From: Natrialbaceae archaeon AArc-T1-2
GTDB taxonomy: Archaea > Halobacteriota > Halobacteria > Halobacteriales > Natrialbaceae
Direction of reading: 5' to 3'
Length of the DNA: 64,000 nucleotides
Assembly: GCF_030273315.1 (NCBI RefSeq)
Contig: NZ_CP127174.1
Span: forward strand, 620,001-684,000
A program made the translations under genes and the position numbers. The first letter of the stretch is position 1, and every line of letters begins with the position of its first letter. Positions 33,155-46,290 of this stretch are shown piece after piece. Below the pieces are notes generated by a model. The model saw only the letters and a program-made list of their open reading frames with translations, was not told the origin of the DNA and did not search any database.

Positions 33155-33341
33155 CTCGAGCACGTTGCCGGTCTCGTTCGAGACCACCGCCGACAAATGT
33201 AATTCAAATAATATATGATGTCGGTCTCACATCGTCACTCCTGGAATTGACGCGATAGCGGGACTCGAGCCGGGCACGAGATTATCAGATGTGGTAATAG
33301 CTGGATGAAGTTTTTGAGGTGTGGTCGACTGGTGGCACGCA

Positions 33342-36300
33342 ATGGCTATTGATGAGGCCGACCAGACTGATGCCGGGCGGTTCTCCGACACCGTGGTGTC
33401 AGGTGCTGAGTCGGATGGACGGACCCACGAGCCGATACGCGGCTCCGACGTGCGCGTCGGCGACTACACGTGGGCAGATTTTATGGCGGAGCATGGGTAC
33501 GACGACGACGTATCCGAACTCTATCCTCACGCTGACGACGATCCGGACGGTTCCGAGACCGGAAGCGACGACCCGACGGCGGACCCATCCAGTCCCGACT
33601 GGGACGGCGTCGAGTTCGATCCGACGGCGTATCTCGGCGTCCACCCCGACGAGCTCTCGGAGCTGCTCTCGAGCGTCGTCCGTGACGCGACCGATCTCCG
33701 GAACCGCGTCCGTGAGGTTGCCGGTCCCGAAGCGGTACCGGTTCGAAAGGGCGTCTACACCTGGGAAGACTACGAACGGGAGTACGTCGACGACGGGGCA
33801 CTCGAGGAGTTAGACCGGGAAGCGGCGCTCGGTTTCGATCCGGACGCGATCGAAGACTACCTCGAACACGGCGACACCGCCGCGACGAAACTCGAGGCGA
33901 TCGTCGAGGAACGGACCGTCGACGTCCGCGAGGAACTCGGCGAAGACGACTTCTTCTCGACCGTAGACGGCCACACGACGGTGACGAATCGGTACGACCT
34001 CGAGAAGGCTGTGCCGATGAAAAAGAAGCGCCACTTCCGCGAGGAGGAGCGATACTGGGTGAACAAACCCTACTCGTTCGTCATCATCTTCCACTCGGAG
34101 AAAGAAAACGAGAAGAAGTACTACCTGATCGAACCGACGTTGACCGAGATCGAAAGCGAGTTACAGGAGTTTCTGTCGGGCAAACTCCGGACGACGATCA
34201 AGTACTCGGACGAAGGGGTCAAAGAGAGTACCGACCAGGAGAGCAAACGGACGGTCATCGAGAACGAGACGCGCCGCCTGTTGAAACGGTACAGTCTGTT
34301 CGAGCAGCCGTCCGGACGTGACAGCGGGTTGTTCTCGAGCAACGACGACGGTGGGCTGTTCTCGAGAGGCGGGTCGGATGCCGCCGGTAGTGATGACGAG
34401 GGCGGACTGCTCTCGAGAAACAACTCGAGTACCGACGGTGGACTGCTCTCGCGCAGTGACGAGGGCGGACTGCTCGAGTCGCTGAAGACGTTGCTCGACG
34501 ATGACGACGACACCGGGGACGACGACGGAGACGAGCCGGACGACACGAGCGAGACGGACCGCGAGCTCGATGGAATCGAGGCCCGTCCCGAGCCGGCCGT
34601 CCTCGAGGAGGACGCCGACACCCTGACCGAGTACCAGGTCGAGAAGCTGTTGTACTACCTCAAGCGGAATTTCATCGGCTACGAGCGGATCGACGGGATC
34701 AAACACGACATCAACGTCGAGGACATCTCGTGTGACGGGTACAACTCGCCGGTGTTCGTCTATCACTCGGAGTACGAACAGATCATCACCAACGTCTTCC
34801 ACGGAAAAGAAGAACTCGACGACTTCGTCGTCAAACTCGCCCAGCGATCGGGCAAGGGAATCAGCAAACGGCTCCCGCAGGTTGACGCGACCCTTCCCGA
34901 CGGTTCGCGTGCACAGCTTACGCTCGGTCCGGAGGTCTCGGACCACGGGACGAACTACACGATCCGTCAGTTCAAAGACGTCCCGTTCACGCCGGTCGAT
35001 CTCATCAACTGGAACACGTTCAGCTTAGAGGAGATGGCGTTTCTCTGGCTCTGTATCGAGAACCACAAGAGCCTGATTTTCGCCGGCGGGACGGCCTCGG
35101 GAAAGACGACCAGCCTGAACGCCGTCTCGCTGTTCATCCCGAGCAACACGAAGATCGTCTCGATCGAGGACACCCGCGAGGTCGAGTTGCCACAGCGAAA
35201 CTGGATCGCAAGCGTCACCCGGCCTTCCTTCTCCGACGACGATCAGGGCGACGTCGACGAGTTCGACTTACTCGAGGCCGCACTGCGCCAGCGTCCCGAC
35301 TACATCGTCATGGGTGAGATCCGTGGCGAGGAGGGGCGAACGGCGTTTCAGGTCATGTCGACGGGGCACACCACGTACACGACGTTCCACGCCGACTCCG
35401 TCGACGAAGTCCTCAAACGATTCACGACTGACCCGATCAACGTCTCGAAGACGATGTTCACTGCCCTGGATCTGGTTTCGATCCAGACCCAGACGCGGGT
35501 CCAGGGTAACAAGGTCCGTCGGAACAAGTCGCTGACAGAGATCAACCACTACGAGGCAGAAAACGACGAGATCAACGTCCAGGACGTCTACCAGTGGCAG
35601 GCCGAAACCGACGAGTTCCTCAAGATGGGTGACTCGAATACGCTGGATACGATCCAGTTCGACCGCGGCTGGAGCCGCGAGCGCCTCGAAAACGAGATTT
35701 TCAAGCGCAAGGCCATCCTCGCATATCTCATCAAGAACGGACTCAACACGTACGCAGAAGTCGCCGCGACTGTCCAGGCGTTTATCAACGACCCCGAAAC
35801 GATCCTCACGCTCATCGCCAACGATCAACTCGAGGAGAGTCTCGCGGATCTCCGGGAGATGGAAAGCGTTCTGATCGACGTCGACCAGGAGAAAGAAGCG
35901 CTCGTTCCACGACCCGATCCCACCGACGAGACGTACAACCTCTCCGTCGACATTCTCGAGCGAGCCGAGACGGAACTGCTCGAGGAGTACCGCGGGAAGG
36001 TTCCAAGCGGGCTAAGCAGCGCACTCGGTGACGTCGACGAAGCGGGAACGATCGAAGTCGATCGAGCCGATCCCGACGACGTCAGCTTCGGCGGCGACGT
36101 GGACGATGCCGCCGACGACCTCGAGTGGGACCGAGACGACGATGCAGCCAGCTTCTCGAGCGAAGGGGACGACAGCGAGGCGATGCCGTCGTGGCTCGAC
36201 GAATCAGATTCGGGTAGCGACGACGGTGTGATGGCGAGTACGTCGACCGACGTGGAACCGGAATCGGAACCACCGGCACTCGAGGGAAGACGAGACGAGA

Positions 36301-36950
36301 GAACTGCAACGACACAACCGTCCGACGAAACGGGTGAGGCGTCGAATCCGGCAGCCGAGTTCGAGCCGGCGACGGCCGAAGCCGACGCGTCGACCGGTTC
36401 AGACGACGGGCCGGAGCCAACTGACGCTCGAGTCGCAGATGATCCCGATGACGGTACGACGCTCGATTTCGAGGCGGAGGCCGCTTCGTCGGAATCCGGG
36501 CGGGACGGCACGACGGACGCAGACGACGAGTTCGACGGGCTGTTCCAGGATATGGGGCGTGCGCTCGAGGAGATCGAGCGCGCCGACGCCGAGGCGACAG
36601 GCGAACAGCGAGAGAGCGATCCGTCATCCGCCGAGGCGGAACTGGAGACGATTTTCGACGACGAATCGGTCGACTCGATGGAGGTCGAGACGAGCGATTC
36701 GATTTTCGCAACCGAAGGCACGGACGACGCTCGAAGGTCCGAAGTGGACGGCGACCCGTCGGAGACGGACCCGACCGATACGCCGTCCGACGACGAGACG
36801 ACTGACGACCGATCCGGAGCAGACGGGGACGATCCGGAGCCGGTCTTCGAGACCGCGTCGGGAATCTTTGGTGACGAGGAAGAAGGAAGCGACGACACCG
36901 ACGACGGGGCCGAATCGACCGGCGCTGGGTCTGACGATCGGGGTGAGTAA
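33342..36950 (+). CDS. Type II/IV secretion system ATPase of an archaeal type IV pilus (PilB/TadA-like)
   Basis: 1202 residues, unusually long. Residues 1-320 are N-terminal and include two related motifs (GDYTWADFMAEHGYDDD and GVYTWEDYEREYVDDG). About 326-383 is a linker with repeated GGL(L/F)SR words. The RecA-like core follows: Walker A AGGTASGKTTS near 582, Asp box near 605, Walker B-type YIVMGEIRGEEG, and His box STGHTTYTTFHAD. From about 905 to the end is a roughly 300-residue Asp/Glu/Ser-rich tail. It hydrolyses ATP to drive pilin polymerisation from the cytoplasm. It heads an operon with a TadC-like platform (6-bp gap) and five prepilin-like genes. The ATG at 33342 is preferred to the GTG at 33321. 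Confidence 0.92.
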   Translation: MAIDEADQTDAGRFSDTVVSGAESDGRTHEPIRGSDVRVGDYTWADFMAEHGYDDDVSELYPHADDDPDGSETGSDDPTADPSSPDWDGVEFDPTAYLGVHPDELSELLSSVVRDATDLRNRVREVAGPEAVPVRKGVYTWEDYEREYVDDGALEELDREAALGFDPDAIEDYLEHGDTAATKLEAIVEERTVDVREELGEDDFFSTVDGHTTVTNRYDLEKAVPMKKKRHFREEERYWVNKPYSFVIIFHSEKENEKKYYLIEPTLTEIESELQEFLSGKLRTTIKYSDEGVKESTDQESKRTVIENETRRLLKRYSLFEQPSGRDSGLFSSNDDGGLFSRGGSDAAGSDDEGGLLSRNNSSTDGGLLSRSDEGGLLESLKTLLDDDDDTGDDDGDEPDDTSETDRELDGIEARPEPAVLEEDADTLTEYQVEKLLYYLKRNFIGYERIDGIKHDINVEDISCDGYNSPVFVYHSEYEQIITNVFHGKEELDDFVVKLAQRSGKGISKRLPQVDATLPDGSRAQLTLGPEVSDHGTNYTIRQFKDVPFTPVDLINWNTFSLEEMAFLWLCIENHKSLIFAGGTASGKTTSLNAVSLFIPSNTKIVSIEDTREVELPQRNWIASVTRPSFSDDDQGDVDEFDLLEAALRQRPDYIVMGEIRGEEGRTAFQVMSTGHTTYTTFHADSVDEVLKRFTTDPINVSKTMFTALDLVSIQTQTRVQGNKVRRNKSLTEINHYEAENDEINVQDVYQWQAETDEFLKMGDSNTLDTIQFDRGWSRERLENEIFKRKAILAYLIKNGLNTYAEVAATVQAFINDPETILTLIANDQLEESLADLREMESVLIDVDQEKEALVPRPDPTDETYNLSVDILERAETELLEEYRGKVPSGLSSALGDVDEAGTIEVDRADPDDVSFGGDVDDAADDLEWDRDDDAASFSSEGDDSEAMPSWLDESDSGSDDGVMASTSTDVEPESEPPALEGRRDERTATTQPSDETGEASNPAAEFEPATAEADASTGSDDGPEPTDARVADDPDDGTTLDFEAEAASSESGRDGTTDADDEFDGLFQDMGRALEEIERADAEATGEQRESDPSSAEAELETIFDDESVDSMEVETSDSIFATEGTDDARRSEVDGDPSETDPTDTPSDDETTDDRSGADGDDPEPVFETASGIFGDEEEGSDDTDDGAESTGAGSDDRGE

Positions 36951-36956
36951 GACGAT

Positions 36957-38996
36957 ATGAGTCTGAAAGTGCGAGACGAGACCGAAAGCAACGTAGGGGC
37001 CGGATCCGATCCGCTCGGCGAGAGTTTTTATCCGCTCTATACCCTGCTGTTCGACGAAAACAGCGGATTCGTCACCGACGTCAAGCGGAAACTCGCCCAG
37101 TCCCGAATGACTGACACGGTCGAGATCTACCTCTCGCGGGCGCTCGGTATCGGCGTCATCTCCGGGCTCTTGCTCTGGATTCTCGGGGTGTTGCTCGGGT
37201 ACGGCATCTTCGTCGCGTTGGACCTCGTCAGCGTCGAGACGCTGGTCGGGATGCCGGTTCAAAACGAGGCGCTCATCGCCTTCTTCGATCTGGTCCGGAT
37301 CCCGGCGCTGGTCTTCGGAGTGGGACTGGTGTTGGGAACGATCGGATTTTTACTCGGGTTCGGGGTGTTGGTCGCTGTCCCGTACTCGCGGGCGTCGGCT
37401 CGCAAACGCGAGATCAACATGCTGCTTACCGACTCGGTGTCGTTCATGTACGCACTTGCGGTCGGCGGTCTCAACCAGCTCGAGATCCTCGAGGCGATGG
37501 CCGACGCCGAAGACACCTACGGCGAGGTCTCGAAGGAGTTTCAAAACATCGTCCAGGAGACGGAGTACTTCGATATCGACTACCGGACGGCGATCCGCAA
37601 ACAGGCCCTCGAGACCCCAAGCGACGAGCTCGCCCAGTTCCTGACCGACATGCTCTCGATCATCAACAGCGGCGGCGACATGGAGAGCTTCCTCGAGGAC
37701 AAGAAAGAAAAGCACATGCGGACGGCAAAGCAGGAACAGGAGACGACACTCGACACGCTCGAGCTGTTCGGCGAGATGTACATGACGCTGTCGCTGTTTC
37801 CACTCTTGCTCATCATCCTCATGGTCATCATGCAGATCATGCCCGACGTCGACGTCTCGTCGATGATGCTGTATCTGGTCGTCTACGCGCTGATCCCGCT
37901 GACGGGGATCGGCTTTATCGTCATGGTTTCGACCGTCAAACACGACGAGCCGGGCGACGGGTTCCTCTCACGAAACGGCGACGATCGGTACGCCCAACGT
38001 GCTGCCGATCGCGGGCTTCTCGATCTCGGTCTCGTCGAGGCGTTTACCGGCGAGTACACCGTCTTCGACCGGATCAAAAAGAAGGAAGGGACCCACGAGA
38101 CGATCGCCGTCCTCCGTCGACCACACGTCTTCTTCCGTGACAACCCGACGTACACCCTCGGGCTGACGGTTCCGACGGCACTCGTCGTCGTCGTCGTGGC
38201 GATGGCAGACGGCTCGGCACCGACGTCGTGGAGCGGATTCATCGAGCGGCCGGTCTGGTCGACGGTGATCTACTTCTACGTCCCGCTGTATCTCATCACG
38301 GTCCCACTCGCCGTCTTCCGGGAGTGGAACGTTCGCTCGCGAACGTCGATCACCAACACGCTGTCGGAAGACCTCCGGAAGCTCTCGAGTGCGAACGACA
38401 CCGGACAGACGTTACTCGAGTCGCTGAAATCGACCGCGGACACCTCGAGTGGCAAACTCGCCACCGAGTTCGAGGAGATGCACACGAAGGTCAACTACGG
38501 GATGAGCCTCGGCGAGGCGATGGTCGAGTTCAACAACAAGTACCACATCCCACGGCTGGCCCGGACGGTCAAGCTCATCACCAAGGCACAGGAGGCCTCG
38601 AACGAGATTTCGGACGTCCTCCGGACGGCCGCGGCCGCAAGCGAGAACCACGACGACATCGTCCGGGATCGGAAGACGCGGACGATGATGCAAGTCGTCA
38701 TCATCGTCATGTCATTTCTGACGATGCTCGCGGTGATCGCGATTCTCCAGACGCAGTTCATCGACACGATGGCCGGGATGCAACCGGAAAACGGTGGCGG
38801 CGGTGACGAGGCCGGTCTCGAACTCGAGATCGACACCAACGAGCTGTCGTTACTGTTTTTCCACGCCGTGACGCTTCAGGCGGTGCTGGCGGGCTTTATC
38901 AGCGGCTACATCCGGGATGCGGATCTGCTGAGTGGGCTGAAGTACGCGATCGTGCTGGCGACGATCGCACTCGTCACCTGGAGTATGGTGGGCTAA
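36957..38996 (+). CDS. Type IV pilus membrane platform protein (PilC/TadC-like)
   Basis: 679 residues with two T2SS-F-type cytoplasmic domains, each followed by membrane helices (first ends about ALIPLTGIGFIVMVS, second ends about YAIVLATIALVTWSMVG). Signatures include SFMYALAVGGLNQLEILEAMAD and the duplicated counterpart LLESLKSTADTSSGKL. This duplicated form is typical of haloarchaeal pilus platforms. It would sit in the membrane above the ATPase and guide subunit incorporation. The next gene begins 1 bp after its stop. Confidence 0.93.
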   Translation: MSLKVRDETESNVGAGSDPLGESFYPLYTLLFDENSGFVTDVKRKLAQSRMTDTVEIYLSRALGIGVISGLLLWILGVLLGYGIFVALDLVSVETLVGMPVQNEALIAFFDLVRIPALVFGVGLVLGTIGFLLGFGVLVAVPYSRASARKREINMLLTDSVSFMYALAVGGLNQLEILEAMADAEDTYGEVSKEFQNIVQETEYFDIDYRTAIRKQALETPSDELAQFLTDMLSIINSGGDMESFLEDKKEKHMRTAKQEQETTLDTLELFGEMYMTLSLFPLLLIILMVIMQIMPDVDVSSMMLYLVVYALIPLTGIGFIVMVSTVKHDEPGDGFLSRNGDDRYAQRAADRGLLDLGLVEAFTGEYTVFDRIKKKEGTHETIAVLRRPHVFFRDNPTYTLGLTVPTALVVVVVAMADGSAPTSWSGFIERPVWSTVIYFYVPLYLITVPLAVFREWNVRSRTSITNTLSEDLRKLSSANDTGQTLLESLKSTADTSSGKLATEFEEMHTKVNYGMSLGEAMVEFNNKYHIPRLARTVKLITKAQEASNEISDVLRTAAAASENHDDIVRDRKTRTMMQVVIIVMSFLTMLAVIAILQTQFIDTMAGMQPENGGGGDEAGLELEIDTNELSLLFFHAVTLQAVLAGFISGYIRDADLLSGLKYAIVLATIALVTWSMVG

Positions 38997-38997
38997 C

Positions 38998-39537
38998 ATG
39001 TGTCGGGACCGACCTCAGACACCGATCTCGATCGGCGACCGCGGCCAGACGACCCAGGACTTCGCCGTCGGGATCGGCATCTTCCTGCTCGCACTCGCCT
39101 TCGCCTTTTCGTTCATCCCGACGTTCATGACGCCGTTCGAGACGCCGGTCGGCGGCGGTGAGACCGAACAGGCGGATCGGATCGCGGCGACGATCGTCGA
39201 CGACCTCTCGGTGGCCGATTCCGAGCGTCCGAATCACGTGGCCGGTGACGACCTCGAGGAGTACGAGGACAAAAACAGCAGCGAACTGGCGGACGATACC
39301 GTCCTCGGATCGGAGTTGCGAACGACCGAGGACAACGGCGACACCGTCGCGATCGATCGCGTGAACGTCACGCTGACGTCACTCGACGGAGAGGAAGTGG
39401 TGAATTCGACTGACGACAACTATCACGAGGACCTCCCGAGTTCGAGTGCCTCACGGATCGTCACCGTCGAGGACGAGGACGGAGACATCGTGGACGGCTG
39501 TGAACCGGCCTGTCGGCTCACCGTGAGGATCTGGTAA
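38998..39537 (+). CDS. Prepilin-like protein 1 (DUF7287-like)
   Basis: 179 residues. A positively charged leader ends in GDRG, followed by QTTQDFAVGIGIFLLALAFAF, i.e. a prepilin-peptidase site (cleavage after Gly) and hydrophobic H-domain. The mature part is acidic and beta-rich with two late cysteines (CEPAC). Resembles the haloarchaeal families labelled DUF7287 (name from memory). Predicted minor pilin or pseudopilin of this pilus machine; the sequence does not show whether it forms the fibre. Confidence 0.83.
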   Translation: MCRDRPQTPISIGDRGQTTQDFAVGIGIFLLALAFAFSFIPTFMTPFETPVGGGETEQADRIAATIVDDLSVADSERPNHVAGDDLEEYEDKNSSELADDTVLGSELRTTEDNGDTVAIDRVNVTLTSLDGEEVVNSTDDNYHEDLPSSSASRIVTVEDEDGDIVDGCEPACRLTVRIW

Positions 39538-39539
39538 CT

Positions 39540-40208
39540 ATGCGAGGCAACAATTCCGATCGAGGGCAGGCGTACACGCTCGAGGGACTCATCGGCGGGA
39601 TGGTCGTCCTGATGGCGGTGTTGCTGTCCCTGCAGGCGGTGGTGATCACGCCGACGACCGGCGGGACGATCGACCGGACGATCCAGGCCCAGCAACAACA
39701 GGAGGTACAGGATTCCCTGCTCGTCGCCAGCCACGCCGACGAGGCGGAGAACCTGACGCTTTCGGAGACGATCCGGTACTGGGAGAACGCGTCGGACGAT
39801 TCGGCAATCGCCTTCGAAAACGAGAGTGACCTCCCGCAGGGCGTCTACGATCCGGAGGGCTTCGAGAACGAGTCGGTACTCGGTGAGGTGCTCGGCGAAC
39901 GATTCGCCGAAGGCGACGGGCGCAACTACAACGTCGAACTGGTCTACCAGAACGAGAGCGAGCGCGTCCCCGCCGACGAGCGCATCCACCTCGTCTACCA
40001 GGGCCAACCGGACACGAACGCCTTCACCGCGAGCACGGTCGTGACGCTGTACGAAGACCAGCATCTGACGGGCAACAACGAGACTGCCATGACACTCGCA
40101 GACGTCGACGAGAAATACGAGAACGGCGACTACGAGGAGATACCGGTCCCCAACGACGGCGACGGTGACGTCTACAACGTCGTGGAGGTGCGGGTGGTCG
40201 TATGGTAA
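39540..40208 (+). CDS. Prepilin-like protein 2 (DUF7288-like)
   Basis: 222 residues. N-terminus NNSDRG then QAYTLEGLIGGMVVLMAVLLSLQAVVI gives a class III-type leader with the cut after Gly and a Glu a few residues in, as in classical pilins. The ectodomain is acidic, with several NxS/T sequons (possible N-glycosylation). It starts 2 bp after gene 1, and its end overlaps gene 3 by 7 bp, so all are co-translated. Confidence 0.83.
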   Translation: MRGNNSDRGQAYTLEGLIGGMVVLMAVLLSLQAVVITPTTGGTIDRTIQAQQQQEVQDSLLVASHADEAENLTLSETIRYWENASDDSAIAFENESDLPQGVYDPEGFENESVLGEVLGERFAEGDGRNYNVELVYQNESERVPADERIHLVYQGQPDTNAFTASTVVTLYEDQHLTGNNETAMTLADVDEKYENGDYEEIPVPNDGDGDVYNVVEVRVVVW

Positions 40209-41056
40209 GCGACCTCTCCAACCGAGATCGCGACCGCGGCCAGTTGATCCTCATCGGCGGGATCACCCTCGCGTTCGTCATTCTCGGCATCGTCGTCGTC
40301 TTCAACGGCGTGTTGTTCACCCAGACGATGGCCTCGAGTTCGACGACGGAGACGACGGACGTCGAGGTCGCCGAGTACGAGATCAGACAGAGCGTGCAAG
40401 GGACGGTCCAGCGGACGAACCTGGACGACGGGAGCGATCTGACTGATGCTGAAGAGCGATTAGTACCGCCGTATCGGAACGCAACGGTCGGTGATCGGCC
40501 ATCGATAGTGGACGTTACGGAAGTCGAAATCGATGAAGACGCGCAGTGGTATCGGTCGACGCTCGAAGAGGGTGAGGTCTTCAACGCCACGGATGATCAC
40601 GAGGATCGAACCGAACAGCATGTCGGTCGCTTCGCGCTACTGATCGACACGGACGACGACGGCGATCTAACCTTCAGCGTAGACGGCGAAGATGTCGATG
40701 TCGAACACGATAACGAGCAAATAGATATCGTGACCGGTTGTGAACTCGAGTACGAGGATCAGGACGTCGTCGAGATCGACTTCGTCGCCGGAACGACGAA
40801 CGCGTCGGAGTTAGATGGTGACTGTGATGACCTCGATCTGATCGATCCATCCGACGAAATTGAGACGATCGAATTCGATGACGATACTGACGATATCGGC
40901 ATGTACGAAATCGTCGCGAAGGGTAATGGCGACCTCACACCGGACATCGGTGGCGACGACGCAGTGTGGCAAGCCGACGTCACCTACCAGTACGACTCGA
41001 GCGACGTCACTGCCGAACGAGAAATCACGGTCGACATCTACGGTGATCGACGATGA
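40202..41056 (+). CDS. Prepilin-like protein 3 (DUF7261-like)
   Basis: 284 residues, the largest of the five. The leader NRDRDRG is followed by QLILIGGITLAFVILGIVVVFNG. The ectodomain is dominated by Asp/Glu and contains one Cys pair region (VTGCELEYED...DGDCDDLD). Codon usage in the second half is less GC-biased than in its neighbours. Overlaps gene 2 by 7 bp and gene 4 by 4 bp (ATGA). Probably a surface-exposed pseudopilin. Confidence 0.82.
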   Translation: MVSDLSNRDRDRGQLILIGGITLAFVILGIVVVFNGVLFTQTMASSSTTETTDVEVAEYEIRQSVQGTVQRTNLDDGSDLTDAEERLVPPYRNATVGDRPSIVDVTEVEIDEDAQWYRSTLEEGEVFNATDDHEDRTEQHVGRFALLIDTDDDGDLTFSVDGEDVDVEHDNEQIDIVTGCELEYEDQDVVEIDFVAGTTNASELDGDCDDLDLIDPSDEIETIEFDDDTDDIGMYEIVAKGNGDLTPDIGGDDAVWQADVTYQYDSSDVTAEREITVDIYGDRR

Positions 41057-41526
41057 GACGACGAGACGACCGGGCGGTGTCGATTGCAATCACGCACGTC
41101 CTGACGATCGCGGTGACGACGATCGTGCTGGCCGGACTGTTGATGGGTGCCAGCACGGTGCTCGACAGGGAACAGACACGGAGCGGCGAGCAGTCCCTCG
41201 AGACGATCGGCGAGCGGCTGGCGACCGAACTCGAGGACGTGGATCGGCTGGCAGACGACTCCGATGACAACACCGTCACCGTCTACGCCGAGCACCCGGA
41301 GACGGTGTCGGGATCGTCGTACACGGTCGAGGTGGCCGAAGACGACGACTGTGGTGAGTTGATCGACGGGGAGTGTCTGCGACTGACCGCACACGGCGGC
41401 GGGGCGGTCGCCACCGTGCCGGTGGACACCGAGGCGGAGCTCGACCCCGACAGCAGTGCAAGCGGTGGGACGATGAACGTGAGTTACACCGGCGACGAGA
41501 TCACGATACGGAGTGAGTCGCGATGA
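41053..41526 (+). CDS. Prepilin-like protein 4 (DUF7266-like)
   Basis: 157 residues. The leader RRRDDRA is followed by VSIAITHVLTIAVTTIVLAGLLM, the DDRA-VS pattern also seen at the processing site of haloarchaeal PilA pilins. Short acidic ectodomain with one Cys pair (DDCGELIDGEC). Starts in an ATGA overlap with gene 3 and ends in one with gene 5. Confidence 0.82.
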   Translation: MRRRDDRAVSIAITHVLTIAVTTIVLAGLLMGASTVLDREQTRSGEQSLETIGERLATELEDVDRLADDSDDNTVTVYAEHPETVSGSSYTVEVAEDDDCGELIDGECLRLTAHGGGAVATVPVDTEAELDPDSSASGGTMNVSYTGDEITIRSESR

Positions 41527-42260
41527 GAGAGCAGTCGTTCGGAGACGACGAGCGTGCCGTCAGCGAGGTGATCTCGTTCGTGATGGTGTTCGGTATCATT
41601 ATCGGCTCGGTCGCCGTCCTCTCGCTCGTCGGCTTCCAGCTGGTCGAAGACTACCAGGAGAACGAACAGCTCCAGAACGCCGAACGCGGGATGACCTCCC
41701 TGGCGGCGAACGTCGACGACGTGGTCCGGTACGACACGATCGACGAACGCTCGAGCGAGCTCGCGCTCCGGGAGGGACGGGTCGTCACCGGCGACGACGG
41801 AACGAGGCTGAACGTGACCGTCGGCGACGAGGAGGTGTTCAACGACACGCTTGGCACCTTCAGGTACGAACTCGACGGGCGGGCGATCGCGTACGACGGC
41901 GGTGGCGTGTTCCGGGCCGAAGAGAGCGGGAACGTCTCGATTTCCCAGCCCCCGATTCGGTGTGACGAGGACGTGGCCGTCGTCTCGCTGGTCGTCCTCG
42001 AAGCCGACGACCGGACCCTCCAGAGCGACGAGGTGCAGGAGTTCACGGTCAGAGAGAACGAAACCGAGGTGCACAGGACGCTCGAGGACGACGTGACCGT
42101 GAACGTCACCGTCGAGGACACCGCATACGAGACGGGCTGGGAGACAGTCCTCGGCCACGAGAACGACGACGTGGGCTGGGAGTGGGACGACGACGACACC
42201 GGCTCCTGTGACGTCGACCGCGCGACGATACGAATCGTCGCAGCCGAACTCGAGTACTGA
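41523..42260 (+). CDS. Prepilin-like protein 5 (DUF7289-like)
   Basis: 245 residues. The leader FGDDERA is followed by VSEVISFVMVFGIIIGSVAVLSLVGF, with Glu near position +3 after the predicted cut. The mature domain is beta-rich, with Cys in PPIRCDEDV and GSCDVDRA. Last gene of the seven-gene operon; only 6 bp separate its stop from the convergent gene at 42267. Confidence 0.82.
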   Translation: MREQSFGDDERAVSEVISFVMVFGIIIGSVAVLSLVGFQLVEDYQENEQLQNAERGMTSLAANVDDVVRYDTIDERSSELALREGRVVTGDDGTRLNVTVGDEEVFNDTLGTFRYELDGRAIAYDGGGVFRAEESGNVSISQPPIRCDEDVAVVSLVVLEADDRTLQSDEVQEFTVRENETEVHRTLEDDVTVNVTVEDTAYETGWETVLGHENDDVGWEWDDDDTGSCDVDRATIRIVAAELEY

Positions 42261-42266
42261 CGCCCG

Positions 42267-43388
42267 CTATCTCGTCTGTCCCGACCACGCACCGGTCAGC
42301 ATCGCTCGCAGACCGGCTCGCTCGACCAGCGCGAGAATTCGGTCGGCCCGATCCGTGCTGTCCCCGCCGGCGTCGAGATAGAGTCCGTTCGATAGCTCTC
42401 GTGGCGACTCCATCGGTGAGCCGTCGGCACACACCGGCTCGTCGTTGAGAACGGTTCCCTCATCGTCGTCGGATCGGAAGGGAACGTCGAGCCCGGAGAG
42501 ACCGCGGTCGAACAGAAATTCGACGGCGTGGACCAGCGCGGCGTCTGACTGTGCGTGGCCGATCGCTCCGATCGATCCTCGCTCGTTGAAAAATCGGACG
42601 ACGTACTCTTCGCCTTCGTCGGCGTCTCCGGCCGACCGATCGGCGGCCGGATCGGACGCGGCGTCTCCTTCCCGGTCGACCGTCGACGGATCGGCGAACT
42701 CGAGGACCGTCTCCTGGCCGTCTGCAGCGGGCGACCCGTCTGCCGAAGTTGAACCGTCGATCGCGGGCGGACTGTCGACGAGCGACACGACGAGGTGATC
42801 GAGAAACCGCTCGGTCGACACACGACAGACGTCGTCGTACCGATCACCGGCGATCGCGGTGAGGTCGTCGACGATCGACGCCTCGAGGTCGGATCGACGG
42901 ACAGCGATTCGGCGGGCCGCGAGTTCTCCCGTCTCCCCCTCGAGGCGGCGGCTCGTGGCCGTCCGGCTGACGGGTGCGAGGTCGTCTTCGCGGTCGGCGA
43001 TCGACGTGAGCGGACACGTGAGGTGGTCGGCGTCGTCGGCACCGTCGACGAGTACCAGCTGGCGGCCGTTGGTGTACAGCGTCCGGTCGACACCGGTTCG
43101 TGCCATCGCCTTCTGAAGTCGTCTCGCCCGTTCGACGTCGAGGTCGTCGGGGTAGGCCTCGACGGCGACGAAAAGCGCCGGTGTCGAATCGACGCCGAGA
43201 ACGTACTCGAGTCGCGCATCAGCGATAGTCGTATCGGTGAAACAGCTATCTGCGTGTACGTCCCATCCCAGCGCTTCGAGTAGCGGATCGACGAGCCACG
43301 ATCGGGTCTCCAGGAACGACGTCGGCGGAGACGCATCGACCAGCACGCGAATGCGGTCGACGAACGAACGGAGGTCGAGACGGTCCAT
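42267..43388 (-). CDS. HsdR_N-like (PD-(D/E)xK-fold) protein of unknown function
   Basis: 373 residues from the ATG at 43388. The N-terminal 140 residues resemble the nuclease-fold domain at the start of type I/IIG restriction subunits: FLETRSWLVDPLLEALGWDV, then a beta hairpin LEYVLGVDSTPALFVAVEAYPD and RRLQKAMARTGVDRTLYTNGRQLVLVD. The catalytic E-x-K is replaced by EAY, so cleavage is unlikely. The C-terminal half is acidic and low-complexity. It is transcribed against the pilus operon. Role unknown. Confidence 0.7.
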   Translation of the reverse strand: MDRLDLRSFVDRIRVLVDASPPTSFLETRSWLVDPLLEALGWDVHADSCFTDTTIADARLEYVLGVDSTPALFVAVEAYPDDLDVERARRLQKAMARTGVDRTLYTNGRQLVLVDGADDADHLTCPLTSIADREDDLAPVSRTATSRRLEGETGELAARRIAVRRSDLEASIVDDLTAIAGDRYDDVCRVSTERFLDHLVVSLVDSPPAIDGSTSADGSPAADGQETVLEFADPSTVDREGDAASDPAADRSAGDADEGEEYVVRFFNERGSIGAIGHAQSDAALVHAVEFLFDRGLSGLDVPFRSDDDEGTVLNDEPVCADGSPMESPRELSNGLYLDAGGDSTDRADRILALVERAGLRAMLTGAWSGQTR

Positions 43389-43512
43389 ACAGCCAATATG
43401 TCTCGACTGCGTTAAGTAGATCTCGAAAGGTATTAGATGTAAGACATGTATATTCTCAATACTGATAACTGTAGGTGAGGATTTATTGCTGGAGAGAACC
43501 GCCATCGGGCGT

Positions 43513-46290
43513 ATGTTAGGCCCGTTCCGCAGAATCATACCGAAACTCATACGACGTAGATATGCGTTAAAATTTATTATAGCGATACTGATAATTGGGG
43601 TCGCAGTCGGGGCGATCGGCTACGTGGGAACAGCACAGCTCGCGACAGAGGTCGAAGAACAGACGCACGATTACCAGACCGAGCTCGCCGGAACGGAGGC
43701 CGAAAACGTCCAGAACCACCACGAGCGGAACCTCCTGGTTACCGACATCATCGCGATGTCCGATCCGCTCGAGCCGAGCGACGACCACGACGAGTACGTC
43801 GAGGAAGCTCGGAGTTTCCTCGAAACCGAACAGAGCCGACACGCCGATACGACTCATATCCATCTCATCGATACGTCAGAGGAGCACGTTCTGGCAAGTA
43901 CTGCCGATGAGATAGACGATGAGCAGTTCGGGACGCTCGATGCGACGTGGACGGAGCCAGACCAGCTCCCACAGCGAAGCGATTCGTACTTTATCGACGT
44001 CTACGAGAATCACGACGGAGACGCCGTCGCAGCGTACGCTCGACCAGTGCCGGACGAAGACGGCGTCCAGCTGATGAGTGATCGACTCGTCGTCTACACG
44101 GTCGATTTCGACGCGTACGCCGAACACCTAACCGATGAGGACGGGGAGATCGCGTACCTGGTCGACACTGCCGACGAGCGCGTTCTCATGGATCCGACCG
44201 GTACCTCGACGTTCGAGAGCTACGAACACAGCGAGGTGGTCAGAGACGGTGCCGGCGTCGATACCGTCGAGATCGGCACCCCAGATGGCTCACTCGCCGA
44301 CTCGATCAGGTGGGCGAACGAGGGCGACAGATACGAAGACGGCGAGTATCTCGCGTCCCACGCCATCGTTCCCGGTGTCGATAACTGGTATGTGGTCGTC
44401 CATACGCCTCAGGACGAGGCATACGGCCTGATTTACACCGTTCGGGAGTGGGGCATGTACGGTTCCGTCGCGGGCCTACTTCTCGTCGTTCTCGTCGGCG
44501 GCATCATCGGACGGAACACGTCTAAATCGATCAATCGGCTCCGGAGCAGGGCGGAACGCATGGCCGACGGCGACCTCAACGTCGAGTTGGAGACGAACCG
44601 AATCGACAGCATCGGTCAGCTCTACGACGACTTTGCGACGATGCGTGACTCCTTGCGAGAACAGATCCACGAGGCACAACAGGCTCGCCAGGAGGCAGAA
44701 CAGGCACGCGAGGAGACCGAGCGAGTCAACCGCCAGCTCGAGGCGAAAGCCGACGAGTACAGCGAGGTGATGCAGACCTGTGCCGACGGCGATTTCACCG
44801 CCCGGATGAGCCCCGACGCGGACAACGAGGCCATGGCGGACATCGCCGAAGAGTTCAACGAGATGGTCGCCGAGATCGAAGAGACGACCGAGCGGATCAA
44901 AGCGTTCGCACGCGAGGTCGCGACCGCCTCCGAGCAGGTCACGGCGAGTTCCGAGGAGGTCAGATCGGCCTCCGAGCAGGTCACCGAGTCCGTCCAGGAG
45001 ATCTCCGCCGGAGCCGACGAGCAGAACGAGCACCTCCAGTCGGTCACCCACGAGATGAACGGGCTCTCGACGACGATCCAGCAGATCGCCGCCTCCTCGA
45101 ACGAGGTCGCAGAGATCGCCGCAAAGACCGCCGACGCCGGCGACCAGGGTCGAGAGGCGGCCCAGGACGCCATCGAGGGGATGCGCGAGATCGAAACCGA
45201 ATCCGACGCCGCCGTCGAGGAGTTCGAACGCCTCGAAGCGGAGATCGAACAGATCGACGACCTCCTCGAGTTCATCACCGAGGTCGCCGAGCAGACCAAC
45301 ATGCTGGCGCTGAACGCGAACATCGAGGCGGCTCGCTCCGGCGGCTCCGACGAGGGGTTCTCGGTGGTCGCCGGCGAGGTCAAAGAACTCGCCGAGGAGA
45401 CCAAAGCCGCCGCCGAGGACATCGACGACCGCCTGGCGCGCATCCAGCGCCAGAGCGAGCGGACGGCATCGGAGATCCGGGCCACGAGCGAGCACGTCTC
45501 CGAGCACGCGACGTCGGTCGAACGCGCCGTCGACGCACTCGAGGACATCGCCAAGTACGCAGCCGAAACCAACACCGGCGTCCAGGAGATCTCGGCGGCG
45601 AGCGAACAGCAAGCGGCCTCGACCCAGCAGGTCGTCGCGATGGTCGACGAGGCCGCGACGATCGCCGAAGAGACGACCGCCGAAAGCGAAACCGTCGCCG
45701 CCGCCGCCGAAGAACAGACCACGGCGCTGACGGACGTCTCACAGAGCGCAGACGAACTCGCCGACCGGGCCGTGCGACTCTCGGAGGCGCTCGACCGATT
45801 CGAAACCGATGTCGACGTCGATCGGACCGCCGACGAGTTGGATATCGACGCCACGACCGACGGGTTGGATCTCACAGCGCAGCCATTCGCGGCCAACGGT
45901 CCGGACGAGCGTGTGACTGTATCTGAGGACGAAGACGAGGACGCCCAAACGGCCGTCGACAGGACGACGCCCGGCGACGACGAGGAGCCGGCTTCCGCAC
46001 TCGACAGACTCGAGCAGATACAGACAGACGAACAGGTCCTCGACGTCGAGACGGACGCGGAGCCGATGCCCGATACCGGTATCGGTGAGCGAGACTCGCC
46101 GGACGACGCCGGCGTCGAACTGGACGGCGAGTCGATGGGCAACGACGAGGGTGAGTCGCCTGCCGAGGTTGACTCGAGCGATGACAGAACGGGCCCGACC
46201 GAACTCGACGCTGGCACCGAGACGGAGGACGAGCCGACACCCGAAGAGAACGACGACGAGGACGACGTCTTCGCGTTCGAGGACACCTGA
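43513..46290 (+). CDS. Methyl-accepting chemotaxis transducer (halobacterial Htr type)
   Basis: 925 residues. TM1 at about 18-38, an extracellular sensor of about 275 residues (PDC/Cache-like), TM2 about 315-333, a HAMP domain (INRLRSRAERMADGDLNVEL), a second HAMP-like unit (MQTCADGDFTARMS) and a long coiled coil with the signalling tip EQTNMLALNANIEAARSGG near 593-611. The tail after about 780 is 145 residues of acidic disorder. It relays ligand signals to CheA/CheW. A TTG at 43486 with GGTGAGG 5 nt upstream is an alternative start. It lies beside the pilus operon, so control of motility or pilus function is possible. Confidence 0.94.
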   Translation: MLGPFRRIIPKLIRRRYALKFIIAILIIGVAVGAIGYVGTAQLATEVEEQTHDYQTELAGTEAENVQNHHERNLLVTDIIAMSDPLEPSDDHDEYVEEARSFLETEQSRHADTTHIHLIDTSEEHVLASTADEIDDEQFGTLDATWTEPDQLPQRSDSYFIDVYENHDGDAVAAYARPVPDEDGVQLMSDRLVVYTVDFDAYAEHLTDEDGEIAYLVDTADERVLMDPTGTSTFESYEHSEVVRDGAGVDTVEIGTPDGSLADSIRWANEGDRYEDGEYLASHAIVPGVDNWYVVVHTPQDEAYGLIYTVREWGMYGSVAGLLLVVLVGGIIGRNTSKSINRLRSRAERMADGDLNVELETNRIDSIGQLYDDFATMRDSLREQIHEAQQARQEAEQAREETERVNRQLEAKADEYSEVMQTCADGDFTARMSPDADNEAMADIAEEFNEMVAEIEETTERIKAFAREVATASEQVTASSEEVRSASEQVTESVQEISAGADEQNEHLQSVTHEMNGLSTTIQQIAASSNEVAEIAAKTADAGDQGREAAQDAIEGMREIETESDAAVEEFERLEAEIEQIDDLLEFITEVAEQTNMLALNANIEAARSGGSDEGFSVVAGEVKELAEETKAAAEDIDDRLARIQRQSERTASEIRATSEHVSEHATSVERAVDALEDIAKYAAETNTGVQEISAASEQQAASTQQVVAMVDEAATIAEETTAESETVAAAAEEQTTALTDVSQSADELADRAVRLSEALDRFETDVDVDRTADELDIDATTDGLDLTAQPFAANGPDERVTVSEDEDEDAQTAVDRTTPGDDEEPASALDRLEQIQTDEQVLDVETDAEPMPDTGIGERDSPDDAGVELDGESMGNDEGESPAEVDSSDDRTGPTELDAGTETEDEPTPEENDDEDDVFAFEDT

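Follow-up and report, generated by a model that had tools for sequence, protein, structure and literature searches.

A candidate PilB4-type pilus locus with a conserved five-prepilin cassette and a possible chemosensory partner in the Natrialbaceae

The seven-gene operon and its conservation

We analysed a window of 64,000 nucleotides from Natrialbaceae archaeon AArc-T1-2 (contig NZ_CP127174.1, positions 620,001 to 684,000 of the forward strand), and found a seven-gene operon with the make-up of an archaeal type IV pilus locus on the + strand, at window positions 33321-42260. The operon encodes the motor proteins, the assembly ATPase PilB and the platform protein PilC, and then five prepilin-like proteins of the families DUF7287, DUF7288, DUF7261, DUF7266 and DUF7289, in this order (Table 1). 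A gap of 6 bases separates the PilB and PilC genes, and the spacings from PilC through the fifth pilin gene are 1, 2, -7, -4 and -4 bases. A model's sequence-only reading had described five consecutive, tightly spaced or overlapping prepilin-like genes in the interval 36957-42260. The five genes are indeed present at 38998-42260 on the + strand with the spacings that it gave, and the end of its interval holds them, but position 36957 is the start of PilC, and the operon begins at PilB. Four of the five pilins clear their Pfam cut-offs by a wide margin; the third matches DUF7261 weakly and only near its N-terminus, scoring 24.1 bits where the cut-off is 27.

Table 1. Genes of the pilus operon and its downstream neighbours, in window coordinates
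Feature	Position	Strand	Evidence
PilB4-type assembly ATPase, 1209 aa; extra N-terminal and acidic C-terminal regions	33321..36950	+	T2SSE 1.1e-31, residues 514-734; PilB3_C 4.5e-08 (Pfam)
PilC/TadC-type platform membrane protein, 679 aa	36957..38996	+	T2SSF 2.1e-28, two stretches (Pfam)
Prepilin-like, DUF7287, 179 aa, site DRG/Q	38998..39537	+	Pfam 2.8e-40
Prepilin-like, DUF7288, 222 aa, site DRG/Q	39540..40208	+	Pfam 3.8e-56
Prepilin-like, DUF7261-related, 284 aa (long form), site DRG/Q	40202..41056	+	Pfam 24.1 bits; syntenic orthologues
Prepilin-like, DUF7266, 157 aa, site DRA/V	41053..41526	+	Pfam 3.3e-19
Prepilin-like, DUF7289, 245 aa, site ERA/V	41523..42260	+	Pfam 2e-61
Conserved protein, family not assigned, 427 aa, part of Natrialbaceae pil-che block	42267..43550	-	after pilin genes in 20/20 che-linked regions
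Chemoreceptor (HAMP + MCP signalling domain), 934 aa from uncertain TTG start	43486..46290	+	MCPsignal 4.4e-36, HAMP 9.1e-11

All five pilin genes have the hallmark of class III prepilins, a charged leader that ends in K or R followed by G or A and then a hydrophobic helix, and their cleavage sites (Table 1) read as had been claimed. As a control for chance, we counted the class-III-type N-termini (K/R, then G/A, then an uncharged hydrophobic stretch) among the 49 coding-like open reading frames (ORFs) of the window. Only six carry such an N-terminus, namely the five pilin genes and the membrane protein PilC, and the five-gene observation is therefore not a product of chance.

In the tree, the window PilB clusters with cassette-linked ATPases, including those of Haloferax, and lies apart from the archaellum ATPases. 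The operon also has the marks of the PilB4 type: an ATPase of the length and T2SSE position given in Table 1, an adjoining PilC/TadC protein and its own pilin set. It thus fits the PilB4-type archaeal type IV pilus locus of Makarova 2016 (PMC4858521). The long acidic low-complexity tail of the window PilB spans about residues 840-1209.

The order PilB-PilC-DUF7287-DUF7288-DUF7261-DUF7266-DUF7289 recurs in 48 of the 61 loci that we sampled within the taxonomic order of this archaeon, with the window included. Order differences tabulated at a few loci are an artefact of sorting stop-to-stop ORFs by their starts, and the stop positions give the same order. Among 80 named genomes, most intact loci carry all seven genes; seven Haloferax loci, from species other than H. 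volcanii DS2, are among them, with PilB proteins of 1096-1114 aa. The co-occurrence of the seven genes across haloarchaea, which the sequence-only reading had proposed as a check, is thereby borne out. Of 119 relatives, 104 have DUF7288, including 95 of the 99 with high-quality genomes, and the Haloferax volcanii control has it as well. Each of the five pilins is usually present in a single copy per haloarchaeal locus. DUF7261-type pilins at this locus position fall into two size classes, of about 125-165 and 260-325 residues.

The cassette extends beyond the haloarchaea. Other families of the phylum, which we take to be methanogens from the phylum taxonomy and a match to the Methanosarcina control, keep the five-gene order, often without an adjoining PilB/PilC and sometimes in several copies, with the gene order changed at a few loci. 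DUF7289 on its own occurs in 229 of 295 genomes of the phylum. Eight loci (L025, L047, L049, L072, L073, L078, L079 and L080) have all or most of the five pilins and no PilB/PilC recognised by profile; these may be clade 4C hybrid systems, which are described below. At another locus (L295, in G097), the cassette is followed at a distance of about 8-13 kb by a second PilB/PilC pair, which is divergent.

The che cluster beside the pilus operon

We fetched 20 regions from the Natrialbaceae, a label that we presume for the relatives of kinship group f1 from general knowledge, and seven of these regions were picked blind to their che content. All 20 have a che cluster after the pilus operon. The order is the pilus operon, the gene for the 427-aa protein, and then CheR, CheC (two), CheA, CheB, CheY and CheW on the opposite strand. 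Relatives of the chemoreceptor stand at the same place in 9 of the 20 regions. In L279, the one region that we went through gene by gene, CheR and CheC are separated by an ORF of the size of CheD. Three relatives without CheW (G027, G003 and G050; regions L304-L306) lack the whole block, including the gene for the 427-aa protein, and there the next syntenic genes adjoin the operon. The 427-aa protein, for which no Pfam family was matched, may belong to the che-pilus system. Outside the Natrialbaceae, no CheA or CheW was found after the operon in 12 regions, and most of these have a long DUF7289 pilin at that place. The long DUF7289 gene of other families is convergent to the cassette itself.

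CheF is the archaellum adaptor that joins CheY to the archaellum, and Schlesner 2009 (PMC2666748) found it in every archaeal che region but Methanosarcina che2. It is present in all three of the other che regions that we examined (L307, L309 and L311). In contrast, our search found CheF in none of the 20 pil-linked regions and not in the 49-kb che region of the window genome, the regions to which this search was confined. The pil-linked CheA proteins form a separate clade (support 100/99), and two genomes (G017 and G026) carry one CheA of each kind. The open frames of pil-linked CheA are about 1100-1570 aa with acidic linkers, and the other listed CheA frames are about 690-760 aa.

Furthermore, che genes are kept in seven genomes without FlaI (G000, which is the window genome, G002, G011, G059, G063, G016 and G032), and in five of these they are linked to the pilus operon. 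CheA, CheB, CheY, CheR and CheC were all recognised in the five linked genomes. This genomic pattern suggests that the Natrialbaceae pilus is under chemosensory control. More specifically, and only tentatively, a che system without CheF may be dedicated to the PilB4-type pilus, and non-swimming archaea may have a pilus-based, chemically steered surface behaviour.

Several observations weigh against such control. The pilus and che genes are convergent and do not form one operon. In the window genome only the chemoreceptor and the gene for the 427-aa protein remain beside the pilus operon, and the che operon is located at C1:826-835 kb (L269), about 167 kb away. G027 keeps the pilus operon without FlaI and without CheW, so che is not needed for the operon. 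Unrelated neighbours (c7-c9) are as syntenic as the che genes. Finally, in the archaellated G005, which has ArlI, the CheW genes found lie solely in the pil-linked cluster, and that cluster may also serve swimming.

The last three points, together with the loss of the block in G003 with the pilus operon kept, speak for the che cluster as a passive neighbour whose output is the archaellum or something else; where it persists in genomes without an archaellum, recent decay would still be in progress. We regard this explanation as a serious one, falling somewhat short of even chances. Against it stand the distribution of CheF (0/20 linked clusters against 3/3 other che regions), the recognised CheA, CheB, CheY, CheR and CheC of the five linked FlaI-less genomes, and the two genomes that hold both kinds of CheA in separate clades.

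The che cluster of the window genome looks complete (CheW, CheY, CheB, CheA, CheC and CheR), though no archaellin or archaellum ATPase was found in this genome. A few kb beyond it, at G000:C1:839963-842408 (L270), there are two longer DUF7289 pilins with open frames of 572 and 521 aa.

Pilin roles, ectodomains and processing

The sequence-only reading had noted that no major PilA-type pilin is present. We found none in the operon, and the canonical PilA of the window genome (cleavage site ERA/) is located elsewhere, as are two PilA-like genes. No archaellin was found in the window genome. The complete T2SSE list of this genome consists of one pilus ATPase (PilB), one ATPase that is of the PIN-domain type by sequence and one weak match. 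PilB of the operon is the sole pilus or archaellum ATPase in eight near-complete genomes (the window genome, G002, G011, G027, G059, G063, G085 and G118), and every one of them keeps Pilin_N genes, 2-5 each. Four genomes without a pilus ATPase have no Pilin_N genes, though these genomes are only 58-78% complete. Since all eight sole-ATPase genomes keep PilA-type pilins elsewhere, the gene distribution indicates that the major pilin is probably PilA supplied in trans, with the five cassette proteins as minor pilins.

One of the five, most likely DUF7266, could instead be the major pilin of a self-contained fibre, in which PilA would not be the main subunit. In Makarova 2016, a dedicated major pilin, arCOG03926, is predicted for the PilB4 system, and it is distantly related to PilA. 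In addition, DUF7266 and DUF7289 have PilA-like V-S N-termini, and DUF7289 weakly matches Pilin_N (E 0.16). We nevertheless consider a self-contained fibre unlikely, although worth keeping in view, since all eight sole-ATPase genomes keep PilA genes in trans and each of the five pilins is usually single at haloarchaeal loci. Moreover, the pilins that H. volcanii PilB3-C3 builds into adhesion pili are PilA proteins whose genes likewise lie elsewhere (PMC6491452).

The five proteins had also been described as a complete minor-pilin set for one machine. What stands of this is a conserved, co-inherited set with one PilB/PilC pair and PilA in trans. A complete set without a major pilin is only a hypothesis, because a major pilin is predicted inside such a locus by Makarova 2016. 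Two genomes (G077 and G104) also weigh against the reading that we favour below: both have a PilB of the window clade without the cassette, and in G104 it is accompanied by one long DUF7289 pilin.

We modelled two ectodomains with AlphaFold2. DUF7289 is predicted as a 63-residue helix with an all-beta ectodomain (pLDDT 92.7), and DUF7288 as a helix with an alpha/beta ectodomain (pLDDT 86.8). Neither model matched a structure in the Protein Data Bank (PDB) at E 0.001 or better, whether pseudopilin or enzyme. When the sequences of solved structures were searched with profiles of DUF7266, DUF7289 and DUF7261, nothing meaningful came up. By their modelled helix-plus-ectodomain layout, DUF7289 and DUF7288 look like pilin-type proteins and not like known enzymes or pseudopilins. 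The pseudopilin-like fold for which structure prediction had been proposed as a check, and which marks bacterial tip complexes of the GspH-K type, did not appear in these two ectodomains, and enzyme-fold ectodomains are likewise unsupported.

Bacterial type II secretion systems combine several different pseudopilins (GspG-K) with one ATPase and one platform protein, and the layout of the window operon is similar. The operon might thus encode a secretion-like pseudopilus that exports proteins, not a surface pilus. We judge this very improbable, as no pseudopilin and no other solved structure matched the two ectodomain models, PilB falls among the archaeal pilus ATPases, and PilA is kept.

We compared the N-termini from about 60 loci for each family. 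Both G and A occur at -1 in all five families, with 42G/16A in DUF7287, 46G/12A in DUF7288, 43G/11A in DUF7261, 31G/27A in DUF7266 and 27G/30A in DUF7289. The +1 residue is family-specific, with Q in three families and V in two. An acid near the N-terminus is conserved as Asp +5 in DUF7287 (58/60), Glu +6 in DUF7288 (58/59) and Asp/Glu +3 in DUF7289 (56/58); no conserved acid was found there in DUF7261 and DUF7266 in the same samples. When the profiles were compared, two pairs emerged, DUF7287 with DUF7288 and DUF7266 with DUF7289, the latter two being related at the N-terminus; no relation was found between DUF7261 and DUF7266. The suggested alternative peptidase preferences, with a G/Q and an A/V class of pilins cut by two peptidases, hold as a pattern within the window operon, but they are unsupported and hardly credible because -1 varies between G and A within families and the window genome has one A24 prepilin peptidase, and we rejected them.

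Taken together, we favour with moderate confidence a PilB4-type pilus operon with five cassette minor pilins and PilA in trans, tuned by che in the Natrialbaceae. A single PibD-type peptidase would trim all five prepilins, and the trimmed proteins would act as minor pilins at the start of the fibre, at its tip or as a scaffold. The bulk of the fibre would be PilA supplied from elsewhere in the genome. Less certainly, the Natrialbaceae pilus may answer to a dedicated array (MCP, CheA, CheW, CheY, CheB, CheR and CheC) without CheF, and its extension or attachment might be tuned by chemical signals.

Comparison with known pilus and chemosensory systems

Little work has gone into the haloarchaeal PilB4 pilus beyond its annotation, and its pilin families still carry the label "unknown function" in Pfam. 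For DUF7287, DUF7288, DUF7289, DUF7266 and DUF7261 we found no publications in the open-access literature searched. As one cassette of conserved order, the five families offer a defined minor-pilin set for testing, and the species with a sole ATPase would allow a clean test of which pilin makes up the fibre. Chemosensory control, if true, would be a first case in which archaeal chemotaxis acts on something other than the archaellum, here a type IV pilus. A CheF-less che cluster that lies beside a pilus operon and is kept by species without an archaellum makes this question directly testable.

The closest known system is the PilB4-C4 locus of H. volcanii (the HVO_1160 locus; Makarova 2016, Figure 4B, clade 2). 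It is like the window operon in its ATPase with extra N- and C-terminal regions, its adjoining PilC and its own pilins, and Haloferax species have all seven genes in an identical order. That paper describes arCOG02911 as a signature minor pilin, all-beta, 250-550 aa, often duplicated and common to euryarchaea. DUF7289 may correspond to it, as it resembles this description in its all-beta model, its wide occurrence in the phylum and its duplicated long copies. Beyond the parts of that paper that we consulted, we add the phylum-wide five-gene order, the argument for PilA in trans and the che neighbourhood.

The PilB3-C3 system of H. volcanii, with PilA1-6, has a related ATPase and PilC. Its operon is reportedly without pilin genes (PMC6491452), whereas the window operon has five. 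The clade 4C hybrid pilus (PilB1-C1 of H. volcanii and pil-2 of H. salinarum) shares pilins with the PilB4 kind according to Makarova 2016, but its ATPase and PilC are from a different clade.

The pil-linked clusters have CheA, CheB, CheR, CheC, CheW and CheY in common with the archaellum-linked che clusters of archaea (PMC2666748), and differ in lacking the CheF that the latter contain. In Pil-Chp of Pseudomonas (PMC12632253), a chemosensory gene set is also linked to pili; here the putative link is read from gene neighbourhood and retention. In contrast to Pil-Chp, no PilT/PilU-like retraction ATPase stands among all the T2SSE matches of the window genome. Makarova 2016 saw no evidence for chemosensory control of such pili, and we found no earlier report of the pil-che neighbourhood in the open-access literature searched (most subscription journals lie outside it). 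The locus is a member of a described kind, in which the pilin cassette is now more sharply defined and the chemosensory neighbourhood is the new part.

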